A stretch of DNA of 31,793 bases from a virus, in IMG/VR virus record IMGVR_UViG_3300031857_000857, positions 1-31,793 of that record; one strand, given 5' to 3'. The translations under genes and the position numbers were made by a program. The notes below the pieces were generated by a model. The model ran no database searches, was not told the origin of the DNA, and saw only the letters and a program-made list of their open reading frames with translations. Of the stretch, positions 493-31,793 are shown piece after piece (position 1 is the first letter of the stretch; each line of letters opens with the position of its first letter).

Positions 493-1101
493 TTACAATT
501 TCCAAAATATCAGATTAGCAATACTAAATCTTCCGTTCATATACCCTGGTTGTTTCATTGTAACTTCAGTTACACCATGAGAAACAATAGAGGGAAACAG
601 TATCAGTTGATTGTTTCTAACTGGTAGGGTGTAGTTATACTCTTCAAAATGTAAGTCGCCACCTTCAAACTTTTTGGGTTCTTTGTAAAACGTATATATT
701 GCTGTGAAAAAAGATTCATCTTGATGCTGTTTGTAGTAATTGCCTTCTTCATAATACTGAAGCATGGTCGAATCCCAATTTGTTTTCTTGAACATGTTAA
801 ACATCGGGCTATTCAACTCAACTATTGATTTCTTTACTTCCTCATCATGAAATATTTTTCTGGTGATGTTTAGTAGATCAGAAAAATCTCTGCGCTTGTA
901 TACATCGTCAAGAAATATTCCTTTACCAGATTTCTTTCTGGTTTCACCATCTTCTTCTAATGCTGCGCTAGTTTCATTTTCATCACCAAGTTTATCAAAC
1001 AGAAACTCAGTCTCTCTCCAAATTAGTTTTAGTTCTTCTTTGCTGTAGATTTCCTTTATTATCAGATGTTCGAATGGTTTCTTGTTTACTGTTATTTTCA
1101 T
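493..1101 (-). CDS. 2OG-Fe(II) oxygenase (prolyl-4-hydroxylase-like)
   Basis: A 202-residue protein with the full signature of the 2-oxoglutarate/Fe(II) dioxygenase double-stranded beta-helix. The metal triad is visible as H126-Q-D128 (in YKQHQDES) and distal H175 (in SHGVTEV), followed by the 2OG-binding R191 (in NGRFSIAN). A GGDLHF turn sits between them, as in prolyl hydroxylase-like and PKHD-type members. Such enzymes hydroxylate protein side chains or other substrates using O2 and 2OG. The target is not readable from the sequence; neighbouring fibre proteins or host proteins are possible. Its first 95 nt overlap the end of the upstream oxygenase gene in another frame. The start at 1101 is kept because the residues just after it (FEHLIIKEIYSKEEL) look like a normal N-terminus of this family. 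Confidence 0.85.
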   Translation of the reverse strand: MKITVNKKPFEHLIIKEIYSKEELKLIWRETEFLFDKLGDENETSAALEEDGETRKKSGKGIFLDDVYKRRDFSDLLNITRKIFHDEEVKKSIVELNSPMFNMFKKTNWDSTMLQYYEEGNYYKQHQDESFFTAIYTFYKEPKKFEGGDLHFEEYNYTLPVRNNQLILFPSIVSHGVTEVTMKQPGYMNGRFSIANLIFWKL

Positions 1102-1696
1102 TCAATCTCTCCAAAAATAATCTTTCCGCTTCAAGATTTCTATCCTTAGCAGCTAAAGATGTTCTGAAATCATACTTGCATCCTGCATATGGACCATTAG
1201 CATCGACATAATGCATAAACACTTGAGTTTGGTATACTCCGATAAATTTCTCTCTCCAATGTTCAATCTCACATCCTTTATATACTAAGGCGTCTCCAGG
1301 ATATAGTTTAATCTTTATATCTGGTTCAACATATAAATCCCAAGGTTCGTCATCAAATGTATCGTATTCTAAAGTTGCTGTAATTGATATTTCGCAAGAT
1401 GGTCTATCGCTATGTCTTTTCAAAATTTCTTTTGGTGAATACACTCTACAGTAATTGTACGTTGGGTGTAATGTATAACCAATTAAATTTTCTAGTTTAT
1501 TTCTGTATAGTTCTTGATATTCTGAATTTACCGTATCCGCATAAACTGAACTAGATAGTTGACATTGATCGTCGACTACAAGATTATTGGTTCTTTTCAG
1601 AAACATCATTCTCTTAGCCATTCTTTCAACATGCTTTATATTGAAGAAATTGCGTAAAACAATAAACTTATTATGATCAAATTCATCTTTATGCAT
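1007..1696 (-). CDS. 2OG-Fe(II) oxygenase-like protein
   Basis: A 229-residue protein opening with HNKFIVLRNFFNIKHVERM, a typical start for 2OG oxygenases. The core shows H95-S-D97 (RHSDRPSCEIS) and a distal H146 (CEIEHWREK), separated by a beta-rich stretch with YPGDALVYKG, the usual position of the G-D turn. The canonical Arg after the distal His is not evident; QTQVFMHYVD occupies that position, so the co-substrate contact may differ. The last ~30 residues are polar, charged and low complexity, and are encoded in the region that overlaps the next gene. It lies 3 nt downstream of another oxygenase gene, so the three oxygenases probably share one transcript. The substrate is unknown. Confidence 0.75.
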   Translation of the reverse strand: MHKDEFDHNKFIVLRNFFNIKHVERMAKRMMFLKRTNNLVVDDQCQLSSSVYADTVNSEYQELYRNKLENLIGYTLHPTYNYCRVYSPKEILKRHSDRPSCEISITATLEYDTFDDEPWDLYVEPDIKIKLYPGDALVYKGCEIEHWREKFIGVYQTQVFMHYVDANGPYAGCKYDFRTSLAAKDRNLEAERLFLERLNENNSKQETIRTSDNKGNLQQRRTKTNLERD

Positions 1697-1699
1697 AAC

Positions 1700-2269
1700 T
1701 CACCTAAATTTTGGTCCAACGACCCAACATACAACAGAATGCCTAACTCCACGTGTTACTGGCATTATTCCATGCGTCATTACTGATGGGAAAACAATCA
1801 CACTACCTCGTTTACGAAAATCGGAAATAAGATCAAATTCCCCATTATTTTGTGCGGATTGTATGACGAAATCGCCACCCTCGTAATCATTTGGATTTGA
1901 TAATTGAATTGCAACCGATAGTTTGCGCATTTCATTTTGATTTGGCCCACAATTATCATCTGTGTGTGGTGTGTAATGTTGGTCTGGGAAATATTTTGCA
2001 TATTGAACGTTCTGCGGATATGCTAAGTCGAAATTCCAACCAGCATTAATATTGGCGCAGGTTGCATAATTTAAACATATCCCCTCGACCCAGTGAAATC
2101 TATCAAAGAAAGATACGTTGGTGTTTCTGACATCTATATTGAAAGAAGAGTTGCCACCATAACCAGTAACACCCTCACCGAATAATAATTTATCGGATTC
2201 TAGAACGATAGCATCGCAAAGTTCTTCTGATAAAACACCACACCAAACCCAATACTTATTATAAAACAT
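1700..2269 (-). CDS. 2OG-Fe(II) oxygenase (PKHD-type)
   Basis: A 189-residue 2OG-Fe(II) dioxygenase. The iron ligands are H102-T-D104 (in YTPHTDDN) and H166 (MTHGIMPV), and the 2OG salt-bridge residue is R176 (GVRHSVV). EGGDFVIQ and VIVFPSVMTHGI are classic PKHD-type hydroxylase blocks. N-terminal residues such as WCGVLSEELCDAIV form the usual helix. It is the first gene of a run of three related but clearly divergent oxygenases placed directly after the fibre genes. GGAAA lies upstream of the ATG at 2269 as a weak ribosome-binding site. Its substrate cannot be deduced; modification of fibre proteins is one idea consistent with its position, host-metabolite or protein hydroxylation is another. 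Confidence 0.85.
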   Translation of the reverse strand: MFYNKYWVWCGVLSEELCDAIVLESDKLLFGEGVTGYGGNSSFNIDVRNTNVSFFDRFHWVEGICLNYATCANINAGWNFDLAYPQNVQYAKYFPDQHYTPHTDDNCGPNQNEMRKLSVAIQLSNPNDYEGGDFVIQSAQNNGEFDLISDFRKRGSVIVFPSVMTHGIMPVTRGVRHSVVCWVVGPKFR

Positions 2270-3657: not shown

Positions 3658-5115
3658 TTAGATTTTACCTCTTAATTCATCAACTTCTTTCTTAAGCTCT
3701 TTAATCGCCTCAATTAAAAGAGGAACTAGTTTGTCGTAATGTACTGTCATGTATTTATTATCGATCGGAGCATCGGCAATTACTTCAGGTAAAATTTCTT
3801 TGACTTGCTGAGCAGAAACACCGACCATTCTTTCATCACCAACATATCCAAGATCTTTTGCAGTTTCGTTAAACTTAAAGAAAAATCCATTGAGTTTCTG
3901 CACTTTATCTAAAGCGCCACCAATATTTCCTTCAATGTTTTTCAATCTTTCATCAGAAACGAATGCGCTAATTTCATTTATTGCATATAGATTGTTAACA
4001 TAAAGATCGCCAGCATAATTTATTCTGGTCGTACCAGATGGATTTGTGGTTCCACCATAAAATTCACCAGCGGCAGAAGTGTGTCCATTATAGGATACAG
4101 CACCAGCAGAGGTGCTTGATGCAGCTCTCGGAATTCCTATTCCTGTTAAATTAGAACCATCTCCATAATGCGTTCCAGAAATTTCTGTGGCTGTTAATCT
4201 TCCAGAGTTGGCGTTGTATGATAATTTTGATGTTGATGCTTTTGCTGTTTGGTCGCTGCCAGTTGCACCAACTAAAACAGGATATAATGGATTGGTTGAT
4301 GTGTCATTGGTTGCGTTGATTACGGTAGATGGTCCAGTTGCGCCTTGAGCGCCAGCTGCTCCTTGTCGACCTTGAAATCCTTGGTGACCTTGAAATCCTT
4401 GATTTCCTTGTGCACCAGCTGCTCCCTGAAATCCTTGATGTCCTTGAGCGCCAGCTGCTCCTTGAAATCCTTGATTTCCTTGTGCACCAGCTGCACCTTG
4501 TACACCTTGAGCACCAGCTGCACCTTGTACACCTTGCGGTCCTTGTGCGCCAGAACCTGGGCTTCCACCACCAGGAGCTCCTTGCGCGCCAACTGCACCT
4601 TGAACGCCTTGTGCGCCAACTGTGCCTTGAACGCCTTGTGCACCAGCTCCACCACTGACTGTAAATGATACGTTAGCATTCCCATTAAGTCCAGAAGTAA
4701 CTGCGACCATTACTGTTGATGTGTTAACAAAATTTAATCTTGAAGCGGTTAATGTTGCGCCATTATTTGCAGATATCATAACTGTATTCGCAGCATTTGA
4801 CAGAGCCTGAGCTATGTTCACACCTGCTAATGTTAATGTTCCAGTAATATTTGCATTTGTTGCTGTAAGATTATTTGTAATGTTTGCATTTGCTGCAATC
4901 AGATTTCCAACTGTTAATGTTTTTTGTACAGTTGCATTACCACTAACCAACAACGCTGTAGAAATATCCGTGTTCGAGAGATAGAGAAGTCCAGCTTCTT
5001 TTTCGTATGTGGTACTTCTTAATTCATTAACAGCATTAATTGTATTGTTCGTGTATATTCGCCACTGATCGAATGTATTTGCTGTTTGTACCTGAGGAAT
5101 ATTTGGAGTCGGCAT
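3658..5115 (-). CDS. Collagen-like tail fibre with S74-type intramolecular chaperone domain
   Basis: A 485-residue fibre protein. Residues 1-155 are rich in Asn/Thr/Ala beta repeats, probably a trimeric shaft. Residues 157-262 are Gly-X-Y triplets (GAQGVQG, GNQGFQG types), interrupted once by GGGSPGS, which should form a collagen-like triple helix. Residues 263-380 form a beta domain. The C-terminus carries a Peptidase_S74/endosialidase-type chaperone: SDERLK at 387-392 holds the Ser-Asp self-cleavage pair, followed by GVSAQQVKEILPE and a final helix KLVPLLIEAIKELKKEVDELR that should trimerise. Known members fold the trimer and then cut themselves off just before the Ser. The ATG overlaps the stop of the preceding 70-codon gene by one base (TAATG), so translation is likely coupled. 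Confidence 0.8.
   Translation of the reverse strand: MPTPNIPQVQTANTFDQWRIYTNNTINAVNELRSTTYEKEAGLLYLSNTDISTALLVSGNATVQKTLTVGNLIAANANITNNLTATNANITGTLTLAGVNIAQALSNAANTVMISANNGATLTASRLNFVNTSTVMVAVTSGLNGNANVSFTVSGGAGAQGVQGTVGAQGVQGAVGAQGAPGGGSPGSGAQGPQGVQGAAGAQGVQGAAGAQGNQGFQGAAGAQGHQGFQGAAGAQGNQGFQGHQGFQGRQGAAGAQGATGPSTVINATNDTSTNPLYPVLVGATGSDQTAKASTSKLSYNANSGRLTATEISGTHYGDGSNLTGIGIPRAASSTSAGAVSYNGHTSAAGEFYGGTTNPSGTTRINYAGDLYVNNLYAINEISAFVSDERLKNIEGNIGGALDKVQKLNGFFFKFNETAKDLGYVGDERMVGVSAQQVKEILPEVIADAPIDNKYMTVHYDKLVPLLIEAIKELKKEVDELRGKI
4330..4647 (-). repeat. Collagen-like Gly-X-Y tandem repeat region
   Basis: Imperfect nucleotide repeats built from 9-nt units (three codons Gly-X-Y), grouped into longer units of about 45-57 nt that end in GAAGAQG or GFQG in the protein. 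Blocks around 4371-4500 are almost identical to each other, which suggests recent duplication or slippage. The units are contiguous and in frame, with no spacers, so this is a coding repeat and not a CRISPR array. Confidence 0.8.
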
Positions 5116-18487: not shown

Positions 18488-18880
18488 TTATCGTAGTCTC
18501 TCTAGAAATATTGTTGTTTGTATTGGTTCTGGGAGATTTAACAAAAAGAATTCTATGGTAATATCATAACCATTGTTATCAAAATTTTCAACAACATCAA
18601 TACTTCTGAGTTGAACCCTTGGCTCAAAGTTTGTTATCACATCTTCAATCTCTTTAGCGATAATATTGGCTGTAATTGGATCCATTGGTTCGAACAGCAT
18701 CTTTCGAACATTGCCACCAATTTCTGGGTGAAATGGTTTTTCATAGTGCGAGAGTAGCACAAGATTCTTGACTGATTGAATAACGGCATTGTAACCAGTC
18801 TTTTTGTTTACATCGTTTTTTATTGGATGTTTGGTGAATGCCAGATCCAAATCTTTATAAATTCTAGCTTGATTTTCCAT
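18488..18880 (-). CDS. gp25: Baseplate wedge subunit gp25 (GPW/gp25 family)
   Basis: A 130-residue protein, the same length as T4 gp25 (132). It shows the family pattern: KDLDLAFTKHPIKNDVN at the N-terminus, NLVLLSHYEKPFHPEIGGNVRK in the centre (the E-x-P-F-x-P-x-x-G block), then MLFEPMDPITANIIAKEI and the beta strand EPRVQLRSIDV. gp25 is the sheath-initiation component of the wedge, clamping gp6 and contacting the first sheath ring. A T4-type late promoter box lies 25 nt upstream of the ATG, so gp25 is probably the first gene of a late transcript that continues into gp6, gp7 and gp8. Confidence 0.92.
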   Translation of the reverse strand: MENQARIYKDLDLAFTKHPIKNDVNKKTGYNAVIQSVKNLVLLSHYEKPFHPEIGGNVRKMLFEPMDPITANIIAKEIEDVITNFEPRVQLRSIDVVENFDNNGYDITIEFFLLNLPEPIQTTIFLERLR

Positions 18881-18905: not shown

Positions 18906-18913
18906 TATTTATA
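18906..18913 (-). promoter_or_regulatory. T4-type late promoter box upstream of gp25
   Basis: A perfect TATAAATA on the minus strand, 25 nt before the gp25 ATG and overlapping the last codons of gp5. This octamer is the -10 element recognised by the T4 late sigma gp55 with the gp45 clamp. Distance to the start codon is right for a short leader, and it explains how wedge genes can be expressed apart from the upstream hub genes. Confidence 0.7.
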
Positions 18914-23924: not shown

Positions 23925-23932
23925 TATTTATA
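23925..23932 (-). promoter_or_regulatory. T4-type late promoter box for the gp48 operon
   Basis: A perfect TATAAATA read on the minus strand, ending 25 nt before the gp48 ATG. The gap between the two divergent start codons is only 31 nt, and the first base of the box is the first base of the gp4 start codon. The plus strand has no TATAAATA in or near this gap. Confidence 0.75.
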
Positions 23933-26389: not shown

Positions 26390-26595
26390 GCTTTAGTAAT
26401 GATTGTTTGATAAAATATTATCAAACAAATTTTGATTTGATTCATAAACATAAGTATTCATTGACTGAACTTGAAAATATGATTCCTTGGGAACGTGACA
26501 TTTACATAAATTTGTTAATTCAACATATAAAAGAAGAGAATGAGAAAATTAAACTAAGAAATCAACAAATAAGAGCAGCGAGAAGTAGAAAGTAA
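26383..26595 (+). CDS. -1 frame extension of gp26 (gpT-like C-terminal domain)
   Basis: This frame is open from 26359 to the stop at 26593-26595. From the proposed slip it adds 70 residues (FLSFSNDCLIKYYQ... to ...RAARSRK), giving a 309-residue fusion with gp26. The added part contains HKHKYSLTELENMIPWERDI and a charged helix IKEENEKIKLRNQQIRAARS. If translated independently it would have to start at a TTG at 26407 with no Shine-Dalgarno sequence; its first ATG is 26 codons in. In lambda and many long-tailed phages the analogous gpG/gpGT chaperone pair precedes the tape measure gene, which is the case here (stop overlaps the next ATG, TAATG). Confidence 0.65.
   Translation, partial: FLSFSNDCLIKYYQTNFDLIHKHKYSLTELENMIPWERDIYINLLIQHIKEENEKIKLRNQQIRAARSRK
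26403..26428 (+). other. Perfect 11-bp hairpin downstream of the slippery site
   Basis: TTGTTTGATAA (26403-26413) pairs perfectly with TTATCAAACAA (26418-26428) around a 4-nt loop AATA. No T-run follows, so it is not a standard terminator. It starts 20 nt after the slippery heptamer, longer than the usual 5-9 nt for stimulatory structures. Confidence 0.6.
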
Positions 26596-29477
26596 TGGCA
26601 AGAAGAAGACCTAGAACGGGTTCCCTCAGATCAGTCATGTCTAATCTCCCAGGAACATCTGATCCTCTCAATGACAGAATCGATTCTCTCGTTGAGAACA
26701 GACGGAGGGCGAAAGAAGAAGCTGCTCTAAAGTATGGTGGTGGATTTGGTGGTAGAATTCTTTATGGAATGGCTGAATCCGTTTTTGGCGAAAGAGTAGC
26801 TTCAAAGATCAATACAGCATCTAGAGACAGATCACAAACACAAAAAGCATACTCTGAACTGTATAACCCCTCTGAGCAAATGACAAGAGGGAAAGGAGGA
26901 TCGGCTGTTCGAGAGATTAAACCAATTTTAGAAAAGATCAACAATAAAGTTGATTATCTTGCTTCAAAGATTGAAAAGATTGATGCCAGACTTAGCGCCA
27001 AGAACATTACAATTGGTAAAGGTGACAAACAACAAACTTTCAGATACGACCCATTAGCACCAGAAGGAAAGCAAGTAACAGCGGCAACTGCATCTGGTAA
27101 GTCTGGAAGATTCGCATCAAAAGCAGAATCAGCATCTGTATTGTCTAAAGCGGCATATCTTGGGAATCAAGAATACCAAATGCCACAAACTTCGACTAGA
27201 GTTTCACAAAATGATGCGAAACAGATTATAGAACAACTGAAAAAAGACTTGACAAAGAGTGGTGGTAGAGAAACTCAAAGTCAAATTGCAGCTGCAGAAG
27301 ATAGGAAAGACTATGCTGCAGGTGAAAAAGATGAACGAAATCAAGAGTATCAAGAAGACGTAATTAAAAAACTAGACGAAATATTAGAAAAAATAGAAGA
27401 TGGTGGTGGAGCTTTAGAAGCTCTACTTGGTGGAGCTGCTGGAGCTGCTGGAGCTGCTGGTCTTGCTCGACTTCTACCAATGTTGGCACCACTTCTTATG
27501 AATCCTTATGTATTAGGAGCCATAGGAATAGCAGGAGTTTTATTTGCAGGATATAAAGGCATAGAAAAAGCTCTTGAGGATGGTAAGATTGATAAAAAAC
27601 AAACTACTGAATCTGGTAGAACTGAAGAAGGTAAAGAAAAATCAGTAGATGTAGTAGAGGCTGGCAGCCAGTATGTTCCACAAATGCCAATGCCTGGTAT
27701 GCCTGTTGGGGTTGGATTTGGTGGAACAAATGTTCCAGATAAATTTGAATTGCCAAAAGATGAAAAAACTGTTGTAGAAACCTATTATGATGGAGATGAG
27801 TTGATTGGTTATTTGTCAACTGATGGTAAACTATATGTTGCTCAGGGTAAAAAAGAAGAAGTCTTAGAAAGATATAGAAAGGGTGATGCAACGTCCGTAA
27901 CAGTTGCCAGTGGGAAAATGCCTGACATCCCAAGGCAAGAAACAACTGGAGCACCATCACCATCATCTGATAGTTCTGAACTTCCAGAAGGATCGATGCC
28001 CATACGAAACGCTAATAACGAAGTGGTTGGTTATCGTAAAGAAGGTGGAGGTTATGAAGCATTACCAGGTAGAGAAAAGGAATTAGAAGAACTATCAAAA
28101 GGAGCAAATCAACTTAATCGTGAAATGCGGGAATCTATAGGCAAATCAACATCGGCAACAGCACCAGCGCCAACATCAAAACCAGCAGCAGAAATAGACC
28201 CTCGCTTCGAATCAATGCGAAGGGATTCAGCCCGAAGTGCTGCCGCTACTGAAAAAACAATTCAGATGGCTGAAGAACTGGCTGATAAAATGGGAATACC
28301 AAACGACGGTAAACTTGAGATTGAAGCAGGCGGATTCCCAAGTCAGAGGTATATTAAATCTATTAATGGGCAAACTGTTCCTTTAGAATTATATACGCCT
28401 GAGCAGCTCGAATATAAAAAATCAGATGATCGGTACAATGCACAAAAAGCAGCAGCAGAGCAAGGGCGACCGATACCACAAACACAACCAACAGGATCTA
28501 CAGGCGAAAGTGAAGAACAAATTGAATTTTTCGCAAAAGGTGGACCAGTCGAAGAAGGGAAAAAGATTGTTGTTGGTGAAGAAGGTCCAGAAGCATTTTT
28601 TGATAGTAAAGAAATAGAAAATTATAGTGATTATCAAAATGCTGACACAAAAGGCAAATTAGCAATGGTTCGAGATCTTATTTCATCTGACATTGAAAGA
28701 GCCGCAAGCATAGCTGGTGTTTCGCTATACGAAGGTGGGTGGACCGAAAAAGGAGATGATCCGTTACTGTACGGATTGAGATCGTCGAAAGGCGACTCAA
28801 CAGGAGGATTCTATGATCTTTTTAAAAACAACCCAGATTTTACTGAAAAATTAAATGAATTAAAAGAAACAGGCGCATCAATAGAAGAAATCCGCAATGA
28901 ATATATTGCAATGAAACTCGCAACGCCAGCAGCAAGAAGAAGATTAATTAGGTCCTATGGTTCGATGAAAGCTGGTGATGATTACACATGGAGCAATGAA
29001 TGGTATGAAGATAGTGGAACTAAACCAAGAGCAAAAGGCGGACCAGTAGAAGATGGCAGTGACTATCTCGTAGGCGAACAAGGTCCAGAATTAATGATTC
29101 CTAAGGAAGATGGATTCATTATACCAGCGAAAGAAACTAAAATGTTGCTTAACGGCACCAGAGCACGTGGTGGGCGAGTTGAGAATTCATTGAAGTATCT
29201 TGTCGGAGAAGAAGGACCAGAACTCAATATTCCTAATTTTGGCGATACTCTACGCGAAGTTCAAAATCAACTCGAAATGAGTGAAGAAGAAAATAGAACT
29301 GCATTGGAAACCGCATCACCTGTGATTAACAATATTGACAGTAGAACGATCAATAACGTCGCACCAAGTTCAGCGCCACCACCGCCAATGACAGTTAATT
29401 CAAGAAATGACGAAACTTCTTATGCAGATATTGCTGCAAGAATATTCTCGCATCCAGCAAAACATCCAATAGCATAG
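26595..29477 (+). CDS. Tail tape measure protein (gp29 functional counterpart)
   Basis: A 960-residue protein. Residues 1-100 are basic; 104-135 form a coiled coil (REIKPILEKINNKVDYLASK); 205-270 are helical and charged. Residues 272-325 are Gly/Ala-rich and hydrophobic (LARLLPMLAPLL, then VLGAIGIAGVLFAGY), a membrane-inserting candidate. Residues 397-430 and 470-503 are an internal duplication. Three units of the GG-x-V-x-x-G-x-x-Y-L-V-G-E-x-G-P-E-L type occur at 649-666, 815-834 and 859-877, a motif common in tape measure proteins of siphoviruses and other phages. An unrecognised domain of about 125 residues (680-805) lies between the first and second units. Tape measures set tail length and are ejected first. 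Position after the chaperone pair supports this; similarity to T4 gp29 (590 residues) was not seen. Confidence 0.75.
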   Translation: MARRRPRTGSLRSVMSNLPGTSDPLNDRIDSLVENRRRAKEEAALKYGGGFGGRILYGMAESVFGERVASKINTASRDRSQTQKAYSELYNPSEQMTRGKGGSAVREIKPILEKINNKVDYLASKIEKIDARLSAKNITIGKGDKQQTFRYDPLAPEGKQVTAATASGKSGRFASKAESASVLSKAAYLGNQEYQMPQTSTRVSQNDAKQIIEQLKKDLTKSGGRETQSQIAAAEDRKDYAAGEKDERNQEYQEDVIKKLDEILEKIEDGGGALEALLGGAAGAAGAAGLARLLPMLAPLLMNPYVLGAIGIAGVLFAGYKGIEKALEDGKIDKKQTTESGRTEEGKEKSVDVVEAGSQYVPQMPMPGMPVGVGFGGTNVPDKFELPKDEKTVVETYYDGDELIGYLSTDGKLYVAQGKKEEVLERYRKGDATSVTVASGKMPDIPRQETTGAPSPSSDSSELPEGSMPIRNANNEVVGYRKEGGGYEALPGREKELEELSKGANQLNREMRESIGKSTSATAPAPTSKPAAEIDPRFESMRRDSARSAAATEKTIQMAEELADKMGIPNDGKLEIEAGGFPSQRYIKSINGQTVPLELYTPEQLEYKKSDDRYNAQKAAAEQGRPIPQTQPTGSTGESEEQIEFFAKGGPVEEGKKIVVGEEGPEAFFDSKEIENYSDYQNADTKGKLAMVRDLISSDIERAASIAGVSLYEGGWTEKGDDPLLYGLRSSKGDSTGGFYDLFKNNPDFTEKLNELKETGASIEEIRNEYIAMKLATPAARRRLIRSYGSMKAGDDYTWSNEWYEDSGTKPRAKGGPVEDGSDYLVGEQGPELMIPKEDGFIIPAKETKMLLNGTRARGGRVENSLKYLVGEEGPELNIPNFGDTLREVQNQLEMSEEENRTALETASPVINNIDSRTINNVAPSSAPPPPMTVNSRNDETSYADIAARIFSHPAKHPIA
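27432..27460 (+). repeat. Short tandem repeat (9-nt unit, 3 copies) in the tape measure gene
   Basis: The unit ggagctgct is repeated three times, coding for GAA-GAA-GAA in the hydrophobic Gly/Ala segment. In-frame slippage would lengthen or shorten this segment by three residues. Confidence 0.6.
27783..28103 (+). repeat. Internal duplication of a ~33-residue module in the tape measure
   Basis: Residues 397-430 (YYDGDELIGYLSTDG, KLYVAQGKKEEVLERYRKG) and 470-503 (IRNANNEVVGYRKEGG, GYEALPGREKELEELSKG) follow the same pattern: an N/D-x-x-x-V/I-G-Y turn, a G-x-Y strand, then a charged helix ending in K-G. Confidence 0.5.
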
Positions 29478-29503
29478 CAACTGGGCATTAAAATGCCCAG
29501 TTG
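29478..29503. terminator. Perfect 11-bp hairpin at the convergent junction
   Basis: CAACTGGGCAT (29478-29488) pairs with ATGCCCAGTTG (29493-29503) around TAAA. The hairpin starts immediately after the tape measure stop and overlaps the last codons of the PagL-like gene on the other strand. It is palindromic, so it forms in both transcripts and may act as a shared end point. No T-run follows on either strand, so it is either a non-canonical terminator or an RNA 3'-end stabiliser. Confidence 0.55.
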
Positions 29504-29985
29504 AATCCTACGAACACTCTGTCAATACCATCATTAATATCCGCACGTTCTGCGGTTGAGTTATGAATCCATGCAACCTCAACCTCAGTTCGATTAGACA
29601 ATCTCCAAAGCAATCCAGCACTCAAGTGAAACGTCAATGTGTCACTTACGAGTGGTCGATTATTTTGCGTCAACTCATCATCAGTGTACATAGCACCGAA
29701 CTCTAGGAATGGGTGAACTTTCCAGTCACCAACATGAACACGTCGAGCGAATGTGAATCCCCAAATATCATTATAGTTTTCACCGCCAAACTTTTCAGCT
29801 CTGGCATACCAATCTCCATACGATACTCCAAGCCTTTGGGTTATCAATTCGCTAGACTTCAATGTTCCACCCGTAAGTCCTATGGAAACTTTTGGCTCTT
29901 TGGCTTCAGCTGCAAAAGCTGCAACAAGAAGAATTAAAAACACCACAACTATCCATAAAACTTTTGAGCGAAATATTGCGTTCAT
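29488..29985 (-). CDS. PagL-like lipid A 3-O-deacylase candidate (secreted outer membrane barrel)
   Basis: A 165-residue protein with a clear signal sequence (basic start, hydrophobic VLWIVVVFLILLVAAFA, cleavage near AEA at ~28). The rest is made of alternating short strands typical of a small eight-stranded outer membrane beta barrel and ends with FNWAF, with the C-terminal Phe expected for barrel insertion. The motif AWIHNSTAE (H141, S143) resembles the H-x-S catalytic pair of PagL/acyloxyacyl hydrolase-like lipid A deacylases; the third catalytic acid is not clearly placed. Such an enzyme would remodel lipid A in the host outer membrane. AGGAG is 8 nt before the ATG. It follows the FN3 gene by 12 nt, probably on the gp32 transcript. 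Confidence 0.6.
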   Translation of the reverse strand: MNAIFRSKVLWIVVVFLILLVAAFAAEAKEPKVSIGLTGGTLKSSELITQRLGVSYGDWYARAEKFGGENYNDIWGFTFARRVHVGDWKVHPFLEFGAMYTDDELTQNNRPLVSDTLTFHLSAGLLWRLSNRTEVEVAWIHNSTAERADINDGIDRVFVGFNWAF

Positions 29986-29997
29986 GTTAGACTCCTA

Positions 29998-30375
29998 TTA
30001 GTCTCTGTCCCTTCTTTTACCCTTGAATCGAAGCACGGGTGCTTTCGATTTTCCTGCTGTAAACTTATGATTTACTTCGTTTGAATAATCAGAAATTTCA
30101 AGTTCAGTTGTCGTTACTGTCATTGCGAAGTAATAAGTCCCAGTTGTAAGACCCGTAATTTCGCCCTCTAGTTCTGTTGGACTAACATCAATAGAGTTCG
30201 TGTAACTACCTGTGGTCGTTCCATAGTGAATGGTGTATTTCAATATTTCTTCTGGTAGAATTGCTGTACCATCCTCATACTGTGTTGGAATATCCCATTC
30301 CAACACAGCAGTGTAATTGTTAGCATAGACTATACCAGGAAGAAAGAGTAATAGAGCCGCTAGAATACGTCTCAT
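29998..30375 (-). CDS. Secreted fibronectin type III-like protein
   Basis: A 125-residue protein. The ATG at 30375 is chosen over a TTG at 30390 because GGGAGG lies just 4 nt before it. A signal peptide is evident (MRRILAALLLFLPGIVYA, cleavage after A18). The mature part fits an FN3-like beta sandwich: AVLEWDIPT near the start, YTIHYGTTTGSY in the middle, ITGLTTGTYYFAMTVT near the end, then DYSNEVNHKF, and a basic tail KGKRRDRD. FN3 domains usually bind proteins or sugars. It follows gp32 by 11 nt and precedes the PagL-like gene. Export to the periplasm or cell surface is expected; the exact role is unknown. Confidence 0.7.
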   Translation of the reverse strand: MRRILAALLLFLPGIVYANNYTAVLEWDIPTQYEDGTAILPEEILKYTIHYGTTTGSYTNSIDVSPTELEGEITGLTTGTYYFAMTVTTTELEISDYSNEVNHKFTAGKSKAPVLRFKGKRRDRD

Positions 30376-30386
30376 AAAACCTCCCG

Positions 30387-31253
30387 TCAATCCGCCAGTT
30401 TCCTAAAAAATTCCAGAGTATCATCTTCATCACCAGAATTTGAGTCGCCAGCAGTTACCACTGGTTCGTCGTCGCCTGAATCTTCCTCAACTGTCCGTGC
30501 TTTGCTCGCACCAGCCAGGCTCAGAACACGATTCAGTTTTGCTTTCAGTTCATCATAAGGCATGAACTCTTTCGGACTCAGAAACTCAACAAGTGAATGA
30601 GACTCTTTCCAGACTCGTTCGATTTCAGAATCATCATCCGACACTGGGCTGGGAGAATCGAACTCAGACTTATCATAGTTACGATATCCCTCAACCATAC
30701 GAATCTTCAGCTTGAAGTTCGCACCTTCCCAGAAATTGAAAGGATTTACTGCCGTCTCATCTTCAAACTCAGGCTCAAGCATTGCTTGAATCTTATCGAA
30801 GATCTTCTTTCCAAACTTGTAAAGAAACACTTTCCCGTCATTAGAAGGATTCGCTGAATCTTTGACAACAAGAATATTGGCGACGTATGACAGCTTGCGC
30901 TTCTGCTTTCGCACGATATCTTTGTTAGATTCAATCCCACTATTCCAAAGACTGGAATTGTGTTCACACACTGGGCATGGCTTATTGATCGAAGTCAGAC
31001 AGTTTTCGATCAGCCAGCCACCAGGTCCTTGGAATCCATGATTGAAGATCTGAACCCAAGGCATCGCATCTTCACCATCAACGAAAGGTGCATCGAGGAA
31101 ACGAATCACAGCATAACCATTACCAGCTTTATCAACTTCTGGTTGCCAGAATCGTTCATCCTTAGATGACGTTCCTTTCAGCTTACCAAGTTCTTTGGTC
31201 AGCTTGTCGATTGATGATGACTTCTTTTTCAGATTTGCGAGAGACATTGCCAT
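30387..31253 (-). CDS. gp32: Single-stranded DNA binding protein gp32
   Basis: A 288-residue homologue of T4 gp32 (301). The basic N-terminal domain (SLANLKKKSSSIDKL) contains the LAST-like cooperativity motif. The zinc site is visible as H72, C85, C93 and C96 (FNHGFQ, ENCLTSINKPCPVC), like the H-C-C-C set of T4. The OB-fold body has KLSYVANILVVKDSANP and FLYKFGKKIFDKI. The C-terminus is acidic (DSGDDEPVVTAGDSNSGDEDD) with a final LEFFRKLAD, which binds replication partners. gp32 coats ssDNA in replication, recombination and repair and autoregulates its own translation in T4. It is next to gp59, as in T4. A GGAG is 9 nt before the ATG. Confidence 0.95.
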   Translation of the reverse strand: MAMSLANLKKKSSSIDKLTKELGKLKGTSSKDERFWQPEVDKAGNGYAVIRFLDAPFVDGEDAMPWVQIFNHGFQGPGGWLIENCLTSINKPCPVCEHNSSLWNSGIESNKDIVRKQKRKLSYVANILVVKDSANPSNDGKVFLYKFGKKIFDKIQAMLEPEFEDETAVNPFNFWEGANFKLKIRMVEGYRNYDKSEFDSPSPVSDDDSEIERVWKESHSLVEFLSPKEFMPYDELKAKLNRVLSLAGASKARTVEEDSGDDEPVVTAGDSNSGDEDDTLEFFRKLAD

Positions 31254-31280
31254 ATTTGTATACTCCGTATGTTTTTGTAT

Positions 31281-31286
31281 ATTATA
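31281..31286 (-). promoter_or_regulatory. Possible -10 box upstream of gp32
   Basis: TATAAT on the minus strand, 27 nt before the gp32 ATG, in the 73-nt gap after gp59. No proper -35 hexamer lies 17 nt upstream and no MotA-type box was seen. A 7-bp dyad (ACATTAT, loop TTCC, ATAATGT, 31302-31319) lies just upstream. Confidence 0.4.
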
Positions 31287-31301
31287 GTGTACGATTTGTC
31301 C

Positions 31302-31319
31302 ACATTATTTCCATAATGT
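31302..31319. promoter_or_regulatory. 7-bp inverted repeat in the gp59-gp32 gap
   Basis: ACATTAT and ATAATGT flank a TTCC loop, positioned 15 nt upstream of the -10-like box. It could be an operator-like site or part of the gp32 mRNA leader; in T4 the leader forms a structure that gp32 recognises. Short AT-rich inverted repeats also arise by chance. Confidence 0.3.
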
Positions 31320-31326
31320 ACAACCA

Positions 31327-31793
31327 TTATATATTCTTTCTGTCAGGATGTAAAGAATTTATTAGTTCTTTTTTATAGAGACTTATGTTTAGATCATTAT
31401 ACATGAACAGGAATGGTTTGTATTTGTTCAGTTGCTTTTTCAACATATCAAACATAAAGTCATCAAGTTTATTTGACCAACGATCAATCAATCCAAGTAA
31501 AGCATCGATGATCAAAAAGTTATCCTGAGAAATTTCACCTTGGTACACCATATTCAGTAACTCTGGTGATTGCCCATCGATGACTCGAAGCGATTCACCA
31601 AAGTCAATTTGCTGAAGTTTACATAAATCCTCCTTGAAAAAATACATCCTTGATTGTTGTTCCCTGGTCCAATCCTTGAAGATTTCTTTGGCTTCATCAG
31701 TCAATAGATCACGAATCCATATTCTGTTTTTCTTTTGATAGTATGCAGCTGTGTAATAGGGAAGTTCAGATTCATTACAGATCCTGGAAAGTT
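31327..31793 (-). CDS. gp59: Helicase loader gp59, 5' end cut by window edge
   Basis: The open frame continues past the window end, so only the C-terminal 154 residues are visible; the TTG at 31704 is just an internal Leu codon. The visible part (LSRICNESELPYY, KKNRIWIRDLL, FFKEDLCKLQQI, then ISQDNFLIIDALLGLIDRWSNKLDD) matches the C-terminal helical domain of T4 gp59, where IISFETFILLDSFLNIIDKH occupies the same position. gp59 loads helicase gp41 on gp32-coated DNA at forks and recombination intermediates. It lies directly upstream of gp32 on the same strand, as in T4. Confidence 0.8.
   Translation of the reverse strand, partial: LSRICNESELPYYTAAYYQKKNRIWIRDLLTDEAKEIFKDWTREQQSRMYFFKEDLCKLQQIDFGESLRVIDGQSPELLNMVYQGEISQDNFLIIDALLGLIDRWSNKLDDFMFDMLKKQLNKYKPFLFMYNDLNISLYKKELINSLHPDRKNI

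Follow-up and report, generated by a model that had tools for sequence, protein, structure and literature searches.

Phages are known to deal with the outer membrane of their hosts mainly through spanins and related lysis proteins. A quite different activity on this membrane belongs to PagL, a bacterial lipid A deacylase (background in the portions of PMC9804370 used here). According to the portions of PMC4958258 that we draw on, active PagL raises vesicle release in Salmonella, whereas inactive PagL does not, and a His and a Ser two positions apart are essential in the enzyme. LpxR is another deacylase, and its gene is not called phage-borne in the sections of PMC6863877 considered here. Among the open-licence PMC papers listed by full-text searches, none was seen to describe a phage-encoded PagL. 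Outer-membrane proteins of another kind occur in isolated T4-like marine phages: Methylophilales phage Melnitz encodes the curli export proteins CsgF and CsgG, and the authors who described it suggest that the curli pore takes part in lysis (PMC9004378).

In this report, we describe a divergent PagL-family protein and its FN3 partner, encoded in a phage slot that holds different envelope proteins in relatives. We begin with the PagL genes of other phages, and then compare the new locus with them and with the curli loci.

PagL Genes in Other Phages

A scan of IMG/VR with an alignment of bacterial PagLs returned 145 stretches, of which 110 were PagL relatives and 80 were kept (L267-L346; e.g., L281:4974-5516). 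A P. aeruginosa-like PagL, 66-73% identical to the enzyme of P. aeruginosa, is thus present in at least 80 contigs of IMG/VR, some of which may include bacterial flanks. Clustering at 80% identity divides the 80 loci into a group of 72 and a group of 8. All three proteins tested pass PF09411 at 148-152 bits, and both of two compared with PHROG match PHROG 15758, which is annotated as "unknown function". Pseudomonas hosts are inferred for these phages only from the identity of their PagLs.

In L281, a PHROG lysis-class holin, the terminase small subunit and the terminase large subunit are among the genes downstream of PagL. A PHROG-2 terminase was found in 19 of the 50 PagL records searched. 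In all 17 of these that were measured by script, it shares the strand of PagL and lies 2.2-4.2 kb downstream; in the other two, G360 and G366, the coordinates likewise put it downstream on the PagL strand, at distances of about 4.9 and 3.6 kb. The 31 records that lack a PHROG-2 match may have other terminase families or be fragments. Because homologues of the L281 holin occur downstream of PagL in only 17 of the 80 loci, and homologues of the gene upstream of PagL in L281 and L267 (PHROG 3412) likewise in 17 of 80, the contexts of these PagL genes vary.

A T4-like Virus with Two Genes behind gp32

The stretch of DNA analyzed here (the window) is a 31,793-base IMG/VR virus record, apparently a fragment. 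Its gp32 (PHROG 224), gp6-like baseplate wedge protein and gp59 mark it as coming from a T4-like virus. The gp6-like protein is nearest to those of Melnitz and Pelagibacter phage HTVC008M (39.5% identity), the gp32 to those of cyanophages (56%, vs. 51% for Melnitz), and the gp26-like hub proteins of the window and Melnitz share 36% identity. Profile A1 matched none of the seven bacterial genomes searched, so no host can be named from this profile. Elsewhere in the window, three adjoining ORFs (493-2269, minus strand) resemble by eye 2-oxoglutarate/iron oxygenases, and a 485-aa protein (3658-5115, minus strand) seems, also by eye, to combine collagen-like G-x-x repeats with a C-terminal part resembling a tail fibre.

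The gene run of interest lies on the minus strand near the end of the window. The gp59 helicase loader (31327-31793; phrog_269, E 2.5e-16) is represented by its C-terminal part, which we take to run off the window; the gene is complete in the relatives L002, L003, L005 and L010. It is followed by the single-stranded DNA-binding protein gp32 (30387-31253; phrog_224, E 4.1e-111; PF08804, 161.6 bits), an exported-looking FN3-type protein (29998-30375) and a PagL-family outer-membrane beta-barrel of 165 aa that starts with ATG (29488-29985). The FN3-type protein has 125 aa counted from its ATG, whereas the mechanical ORF list extends its start to a TTG overlapping gp32. On the plus strand, a convergent gene for 960 aa (26595-29477, from the ORF lists), which stands beside gp26-like and gp51-like genes and has no Pfam match, forms the far edge of the slot.

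The stop codon of gp32 is followed after 11 nt by the ATG of the FN3 gene, with GGGAGG as ribosome-binding site, and the FN3 stop codon after 12 nt by the ATG of the PagL gene, with AGGAG; four relatives have the same spacings (11-12 nt between gp32 and FN3, 12 nt between FN3 and PagL). A sequence-only reading of this DNA had described just such a pair, two ORFs 11-12 nt apart behind gp32 with strong ribosome-binding sites, and had proposed their co-transcription with gp32. The first statement is borne out, and the second is compatible with the predicted arrangement of short gaps, a sigma70-like site upstream and no terminator-like site between. The sigma70-like site, TTTACA-17-TATAAT upstream of gp32 (31326-31354, minus strand), has 11 of 12 matches. 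Since the region shows no excess of promoter-like sites over shuffled sequence (6 found, 6.6 expected by chance), this call rests on its score and on a TATAAT at the equivalent place upstream of gp32 in four relatives. A search for intrinsic terminator-like sites in 29300-31793 gave none. A perfect 11-bp inverted repeat with a loop of 4 and no T-run (29478-29503; RNA fold -22.4 kcal/mol, z -5.3) does sit between the convergent genes, overlapping the last codons and the stop of PagL; it is present in three of five copies, including the window, the other two being L010 and L002 (10 bp), and is absent from L003 and L005.

The motif TATAAATA, which we take to be the T4 late promoter motif, occurs three times in the window, about as often as expected by chance (2.3). 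Two of the three, at 18906-18913 and 23925-23932 (both minus strand), precede by 24-25 nt the genes that start at 18880 and 23900, which are taken as structural, and these two are likely late promoters. In the window, the gp32 unit has no copy on its coding strand; L005 carries one inside its gp32 gene. This pattern of promoter and late motifs fits early or middle expression of the gp32 unit.

Conservation of the Pair

A search of IMG/VR for the PagL protein found six contigs, and a separate search for the FN3 protein found five, all among the PagL contigs. PagL is present in all five FN3 contigs (in one it is cut by the contig end), and the sixth PagL contig is cut inside PagL. Five other contigs from IMG/VR retain both genes as a pair, flanked by gp32 and a convergent baseplate/tail gene. 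In all three contigs that reach far enough (L002, L005 and L010), the order is SleB-type cell wall hydrolase-gp33-gp59-gp32-FN3-PagL on one strand, the gene families having been tested on L010. Where it could be computed, pairwise dN/dS (NG86) is 0.15-0.17 for PagL and 0.08-0.20 for FN3, leaving out two PagL pairs and one FN3 pair with saturated dS; therefore, neither ORF is a chance one, and both are under purifying selection. Relative to L005, identity is 88% for gp32, 82% for PagL and 58% for FN3; by this comparison, FN3 is the fastest-evolving of the three genes. The convergent gene whose end adjoins PagL encodes 561, 932, 960 or 1278 aa among the window, L003, L005 and L010, whose gp32 proteins are 88-99% identical, as if it were exchanged right at the PagL end.

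The PagL Homologue

On PF09411, the window protein scores 38.0 bits against a gathering score of 23, and all five full-length phage copies pass, at 28.1-38.5 bits (37.5, 38.5, 32.5 and 28.1 bits for the other four); with the general barrel family of Pfam, it scores only below that family's cut-off. Its likely signal, by eye, comprises residues 1-28, with a short, positively charged and hydrophobic N-terminal stretch and an A-x-A site (AEA before KE). The C-terminus, FNWAF, reads F-x-W-x-F, and an alternating aromatic pattern at this end is a trait of outer-membrane barrels. With eight strands also predicted (see below), the sequence-only description of a PagL-like outer membrane barrel holds.

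The catalytic-type residues are H141 (codon 29563-29565) and S143 (29557-29559), which align with H126 and S128 of P. aeruginosa PagL (2erv), and D155 (29521-29523), which aligns with E140, presumably the third residue of the catalytic triad in that enzyme. Asp at this position is common in the family: 77 bacterial PagLs have N in 34 cases, D in 28 and E in 8, i.e., one of the three in 70 of 77. In the same 77 proteins, the His is kept in 73, the Ser in 76, N151 in 76 and G153 in 73. These proteins are a subset, chosen by profile score, of 94 listed PF09411 matches in 274 bacterial genomes; this second set, based on profile score only, was made because the first genome scan had selected by the H-x-SNA motif. 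An alignment of nine sequences (two phage proteins and seven bacterial ones, namely 2erv and six plasmid-borne "acyloxyacyl hydrolases") has seven invariant columns: E95, F119, H141, S143, A145, N151 and G153.

The exception is T144. The residue after the catalytic Ser is Asn in 76 of the 77 bacterial PagLs and Thr in all five full-length phage copies. This Asn (HxSN) is, as we understand it, conserved in the family and not itself catalytic. In other words, the window protein shares with PagL of P. aeruginosa the profile, the barrel of eight strands, His and Ser two apart, the conserved N151 and G153, and an acidic third residue, but has Thr for a near-invariant Asn and Asp for Glu. It also differs from bacterial PagLs in being encoded by a T4-like phage beside gp32 and in having only about 20-26% identity to them.

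Apart from Pfam, sequence comparison links the protein to PagL only weakly. BLASTP of the window PagL against a Pseudomonas-type phage PagL is not significant (E 0.07), phmmer against the PDB missed 2erv, and a profile of 80 bacterial PagLs plus 2erv, run at E 0.01, did not pick up the window copy and matched L005 only weakly (13.3 bits). With tblastn against 50,697 phage records, the window PagL and FN3 proteins gave no match at E 1, and the only match to P. aeruginosa PagL was a weak one (E 0.6). A search of plasmids with the window PagL yielded one irrelevant match (E 9), a Cupriavidus megaplasmid has no PF09411, and a scan of genome contigs with the C-terminal part of PagL returned 42 stretches with zero relatives. 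Profile A1 found only haemoglobin noise in the PDB, NCBIfam offered nothing useful, and the defence and counter-defence models of PADLOC gave no family for either protein of the pair at E 0.1. The Pseudomonas-type prophage PagLs described above resemble the window protein in being phage-encoded members of the family, but they pass PF09411 at about 150 bits, match PHROG 15758 (the window protein does not), stand upstream of holin and terminase, and have no FN3 partner that we noticed in the ORF lists.

An AlphaFold2 model of the window protein (pLDDT 76.2, pTM 0.66) is an eight-strand barrel; 46 of the 51 sequences in its input alignment were bacterial PagLs, which favours that fold. The model superimposes on 2erv with Z 15.2 and rmsd 2.5 over 130 aligned residues, and small barrels other than PagL match it about equally (OprF at Z 16.5, NspA, OmpA and a designed barrel). 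Among the 50 chains listed by Foldseek, 2erv has the highest sequence identity (21-22%). Matches in BFVD (such as those from Synechococcus phage S-CBWM1 and Vibrio phage nt-1) indicate predicted barrels in tailed phages too. In the model, H141 and S143 are at the end of strand 7, and D155 is at the start of strand 8. From the strand list and the usual barrel topology, these residues should be at the outer-leaflet end, and the loop between strands 7 and 8 would be extracellular.

Taken in sequence, homology, an outer-membrane barrel and a kept active site are supported, and lipid A deacylation by the phage protein is likely; the latter reading is weakened by the replacement of a near-universal Asn with T144, and activity may therefore be lost or changed. 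The fold could instead have been kept while catalysis was lost, so that the barrel and its FN3 partner bind LPS or peptidoglycan as a plug, an adhesin or a spanin-like link. The Thr in five of five copies, the score of 38 bits beside about 150 bits for prophage PagL copies, the equally good fit of the model to non-PagL barrels, and the strongly basic tail of the FN3 partner all suit such a protein. On the contrary, H141, S143, N151, G153 and D155 are kept in both phage subgroups (L005 being 82% identical), which would be unexpected without selection on the site, and we consider a non-enzymatic barrel unlikely, albeit worth keeping in mind.

The FN3 Partner

The FN3-type protein has a likely signal, again by eye, at residues 1-18, with the same kind of positive and hydrophobic start and A-x-A-type site as the PagL homologue. 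The window copy scores 12.4 on Pfam fn3 (PF00041), below the cut-off of 25, whereas the L005 homologue passes at 26.5. A model (pLDDT 68.6) matches FN3 domains, at best with Z 7.8, middling by the standards of the tool, and rmsd 2.4 over 79 residues; with Foldseek, no match to this model reached an E below 0.001. An acidic domain (net -13) is followed by a basic tail, the last 22 residues (net +7). The earlier view of an FN3-like secreted protein is thus sustained in part, by the exported-looking N-terminus and the L005 copy, and the window copy itself falls short of the family cut-off.

Phage tail proteins often include single FN3 domains, and one could suppose that the FN3 domain and the barrel are baseplate or tail accessories that are beside gp32 incidentally. 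The weak tblastn matches of the L005 FN3 protein, in the best 20 listed, are where named mostly tail or host-specificity proteins. However, both proteins have export-type N-termini, the barrel ends in the aromatic pattern of outer-membrane proteins, and their genes are on the gp32 strand, apart from the tail genes, with no late motif before them in the window. A place in the virion or tail is therefore, in our judgment, highly improbable.

The Slot between gp32 and the Hub Genes

For 70 of 79 IMG/VR gp32 loci, we classified the stretch that separates gp32 from the next large gene on the opposite strand; the nine left out (L077, L086, L088-L092, L094 and L095) have a gp32 match that is cut or very weak. 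Counted as contigs rather than independent lineages, and with "exported-looking" defined by a simple in-house rule, 28 slots are empty (<80 nt), five hold the PagL and FN3 pair, eight hold a small exported-looking peptide on the same strand, seven hold another exported-looking ORF (six of them near-identical), 15 hold something else, and seven could not be assigned. No PagL above the cut-off was found in the 49 other gp32 records searched, of 74 loci without the pair (L023-L096). A weak PagL match in a 140-kb record, L029 (E 0.008, below the cut-off), was rejected, being antisense to other ORFs. The nearest relatives outside the group that have a readable slot, L024 and L025 (gp32 70-71%), have it empty, with 52-54 nt.

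The eight small peptides (L027, L028, L030-L034 and L038) have 54-80 aa and are lysine/alanine/proline-rich. Their net charge after the signal is +4 to +13 in the five of eight for which it was computed, and the two tested have no Pfam match. In L029, an ORF that by eye is HNH-endonuclease-like is located in the slot, 125-595 nt after gp32, and suggests a junction open to insertions. The slot of cyanophage S-H9-2 has one annotated ORF of 120 nt.

In Melnitz, the order is gp33-gp59-(thyX)-gp32, then three small ORFs, CsgF, CsgG, a curlin-repeat protein, FecR, a second curlin-repeat protein and a cyclase, and then the convergent hub genes. By this order, the CsgF-CsgG region of Melnitz is the equivalent of the slot that holds PagL and FN3 in the window, while the last convergent proteins of the two phages are not alignable. 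In HTVC008M, CsgF, CsgG and CsgB are located downstream of gp32 and on its strand. The likeness to our pair is that outer-membrane export proteins occupy the same slot in Melnitz and a place downstream of gp32 in HTVC008M; the proteins and their mechanism are unrelated to PagL and FN3, and several more genes share the slot. From the content of these loci, the gp32-hub junction looks like a slot for envelope cargo.

Possible Role in Infection

We propose that a clade of T4-like phages carries the two genes as a conserved pair of cargo genes, in the variable slot that separates gp32 from the convergent baseplate genes. The host Sec pathway would take both proteins out of the cytoplasm. PagL would be inserted in the outer membrane so that its His-Ser-Asp site, where strands 7 and 8 reach the extracellular side, faces the outer leaflet, and, judging by its family and residues, would remove the 3-O-linked acyl chain of lipid A. 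As a guess, the FN3 protein might serve as its partner or tether, staying in the periplasm or on the periplasmic side of the outer membrane. Expression would be driven by the gp32 promoter from early or middle infection onward. The most likely result would be a looser outer membrane that bends and sheds more easily: given the vesicle effect of Salmonella PagL, deacylation during infection should make this membrane looser and more curved. We put remodelling of the envelope by a PagL-type enzyme at about an even chance.

The specific benefit is less certain. One candidate is the control of superinfection, in which PagL remodels the surface of the infected cell and so lowers the adsorption of further phages, of the phage's own progeny or of phages stuck to vesicles. 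A gene behind a predicted early/middle-type promoter and a predicted surface location would suit this role, and if phage PagL raises vesicle release as in Salmonella (same portions of PMC4958258), the vesicles could serve as decoys. No sequence feature found here indicates receptor masking, and PADLOC, as mentioned above, had no match. Moreover, PagL alters a membrane acyl chain rather than the sugars or proteins to which phages usually attach, and we see this role as a rather poor bet. In this respect, the envelope role suggested by the sequence-only reading is supported in part, by two exported-looking proteins, a PagL-family barrel and an arrangement that fits co-transcription with gp32, while nothing favours superinfection exclusion, one of the outcomes it listed, in particular.

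We favour instead a benefit at the end of infection: PagL would act along with the cell wall hydrolase, whose gene lies upstream in this run, to ease lysis and the release of progeny. This preference is based on that hydrolase gene and on the position of other phages' PagL ahead of holin and terminase; both neighbourhoods lean weakly towards lysis.

A wider and more speculative proposal is that the gp32-hub junction is a dedicated envelope-cargo slot in which PagL and FN3, the CsgF-CsgG pore and the cationic peptides are alternatives for opening or loosening the outer membrane, and that PagL-type trimming of lipid A is a general phage route, acquired separately in T4-like and temperate phages, and near the holin in the latter. 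Taken as a whole, this proposal seems to us rather unlikely.

The PagL gene is small, and expression in E. coli with mass spectrometry would make the enzymatic reading easily testable. The comparison of slots also places the curli pores of isolated marine phages, so far unexplained, within a broader pattern. If true, a lipid A-trimming enzyme carried by a phage would be a different, chemical way past the outer membrane.
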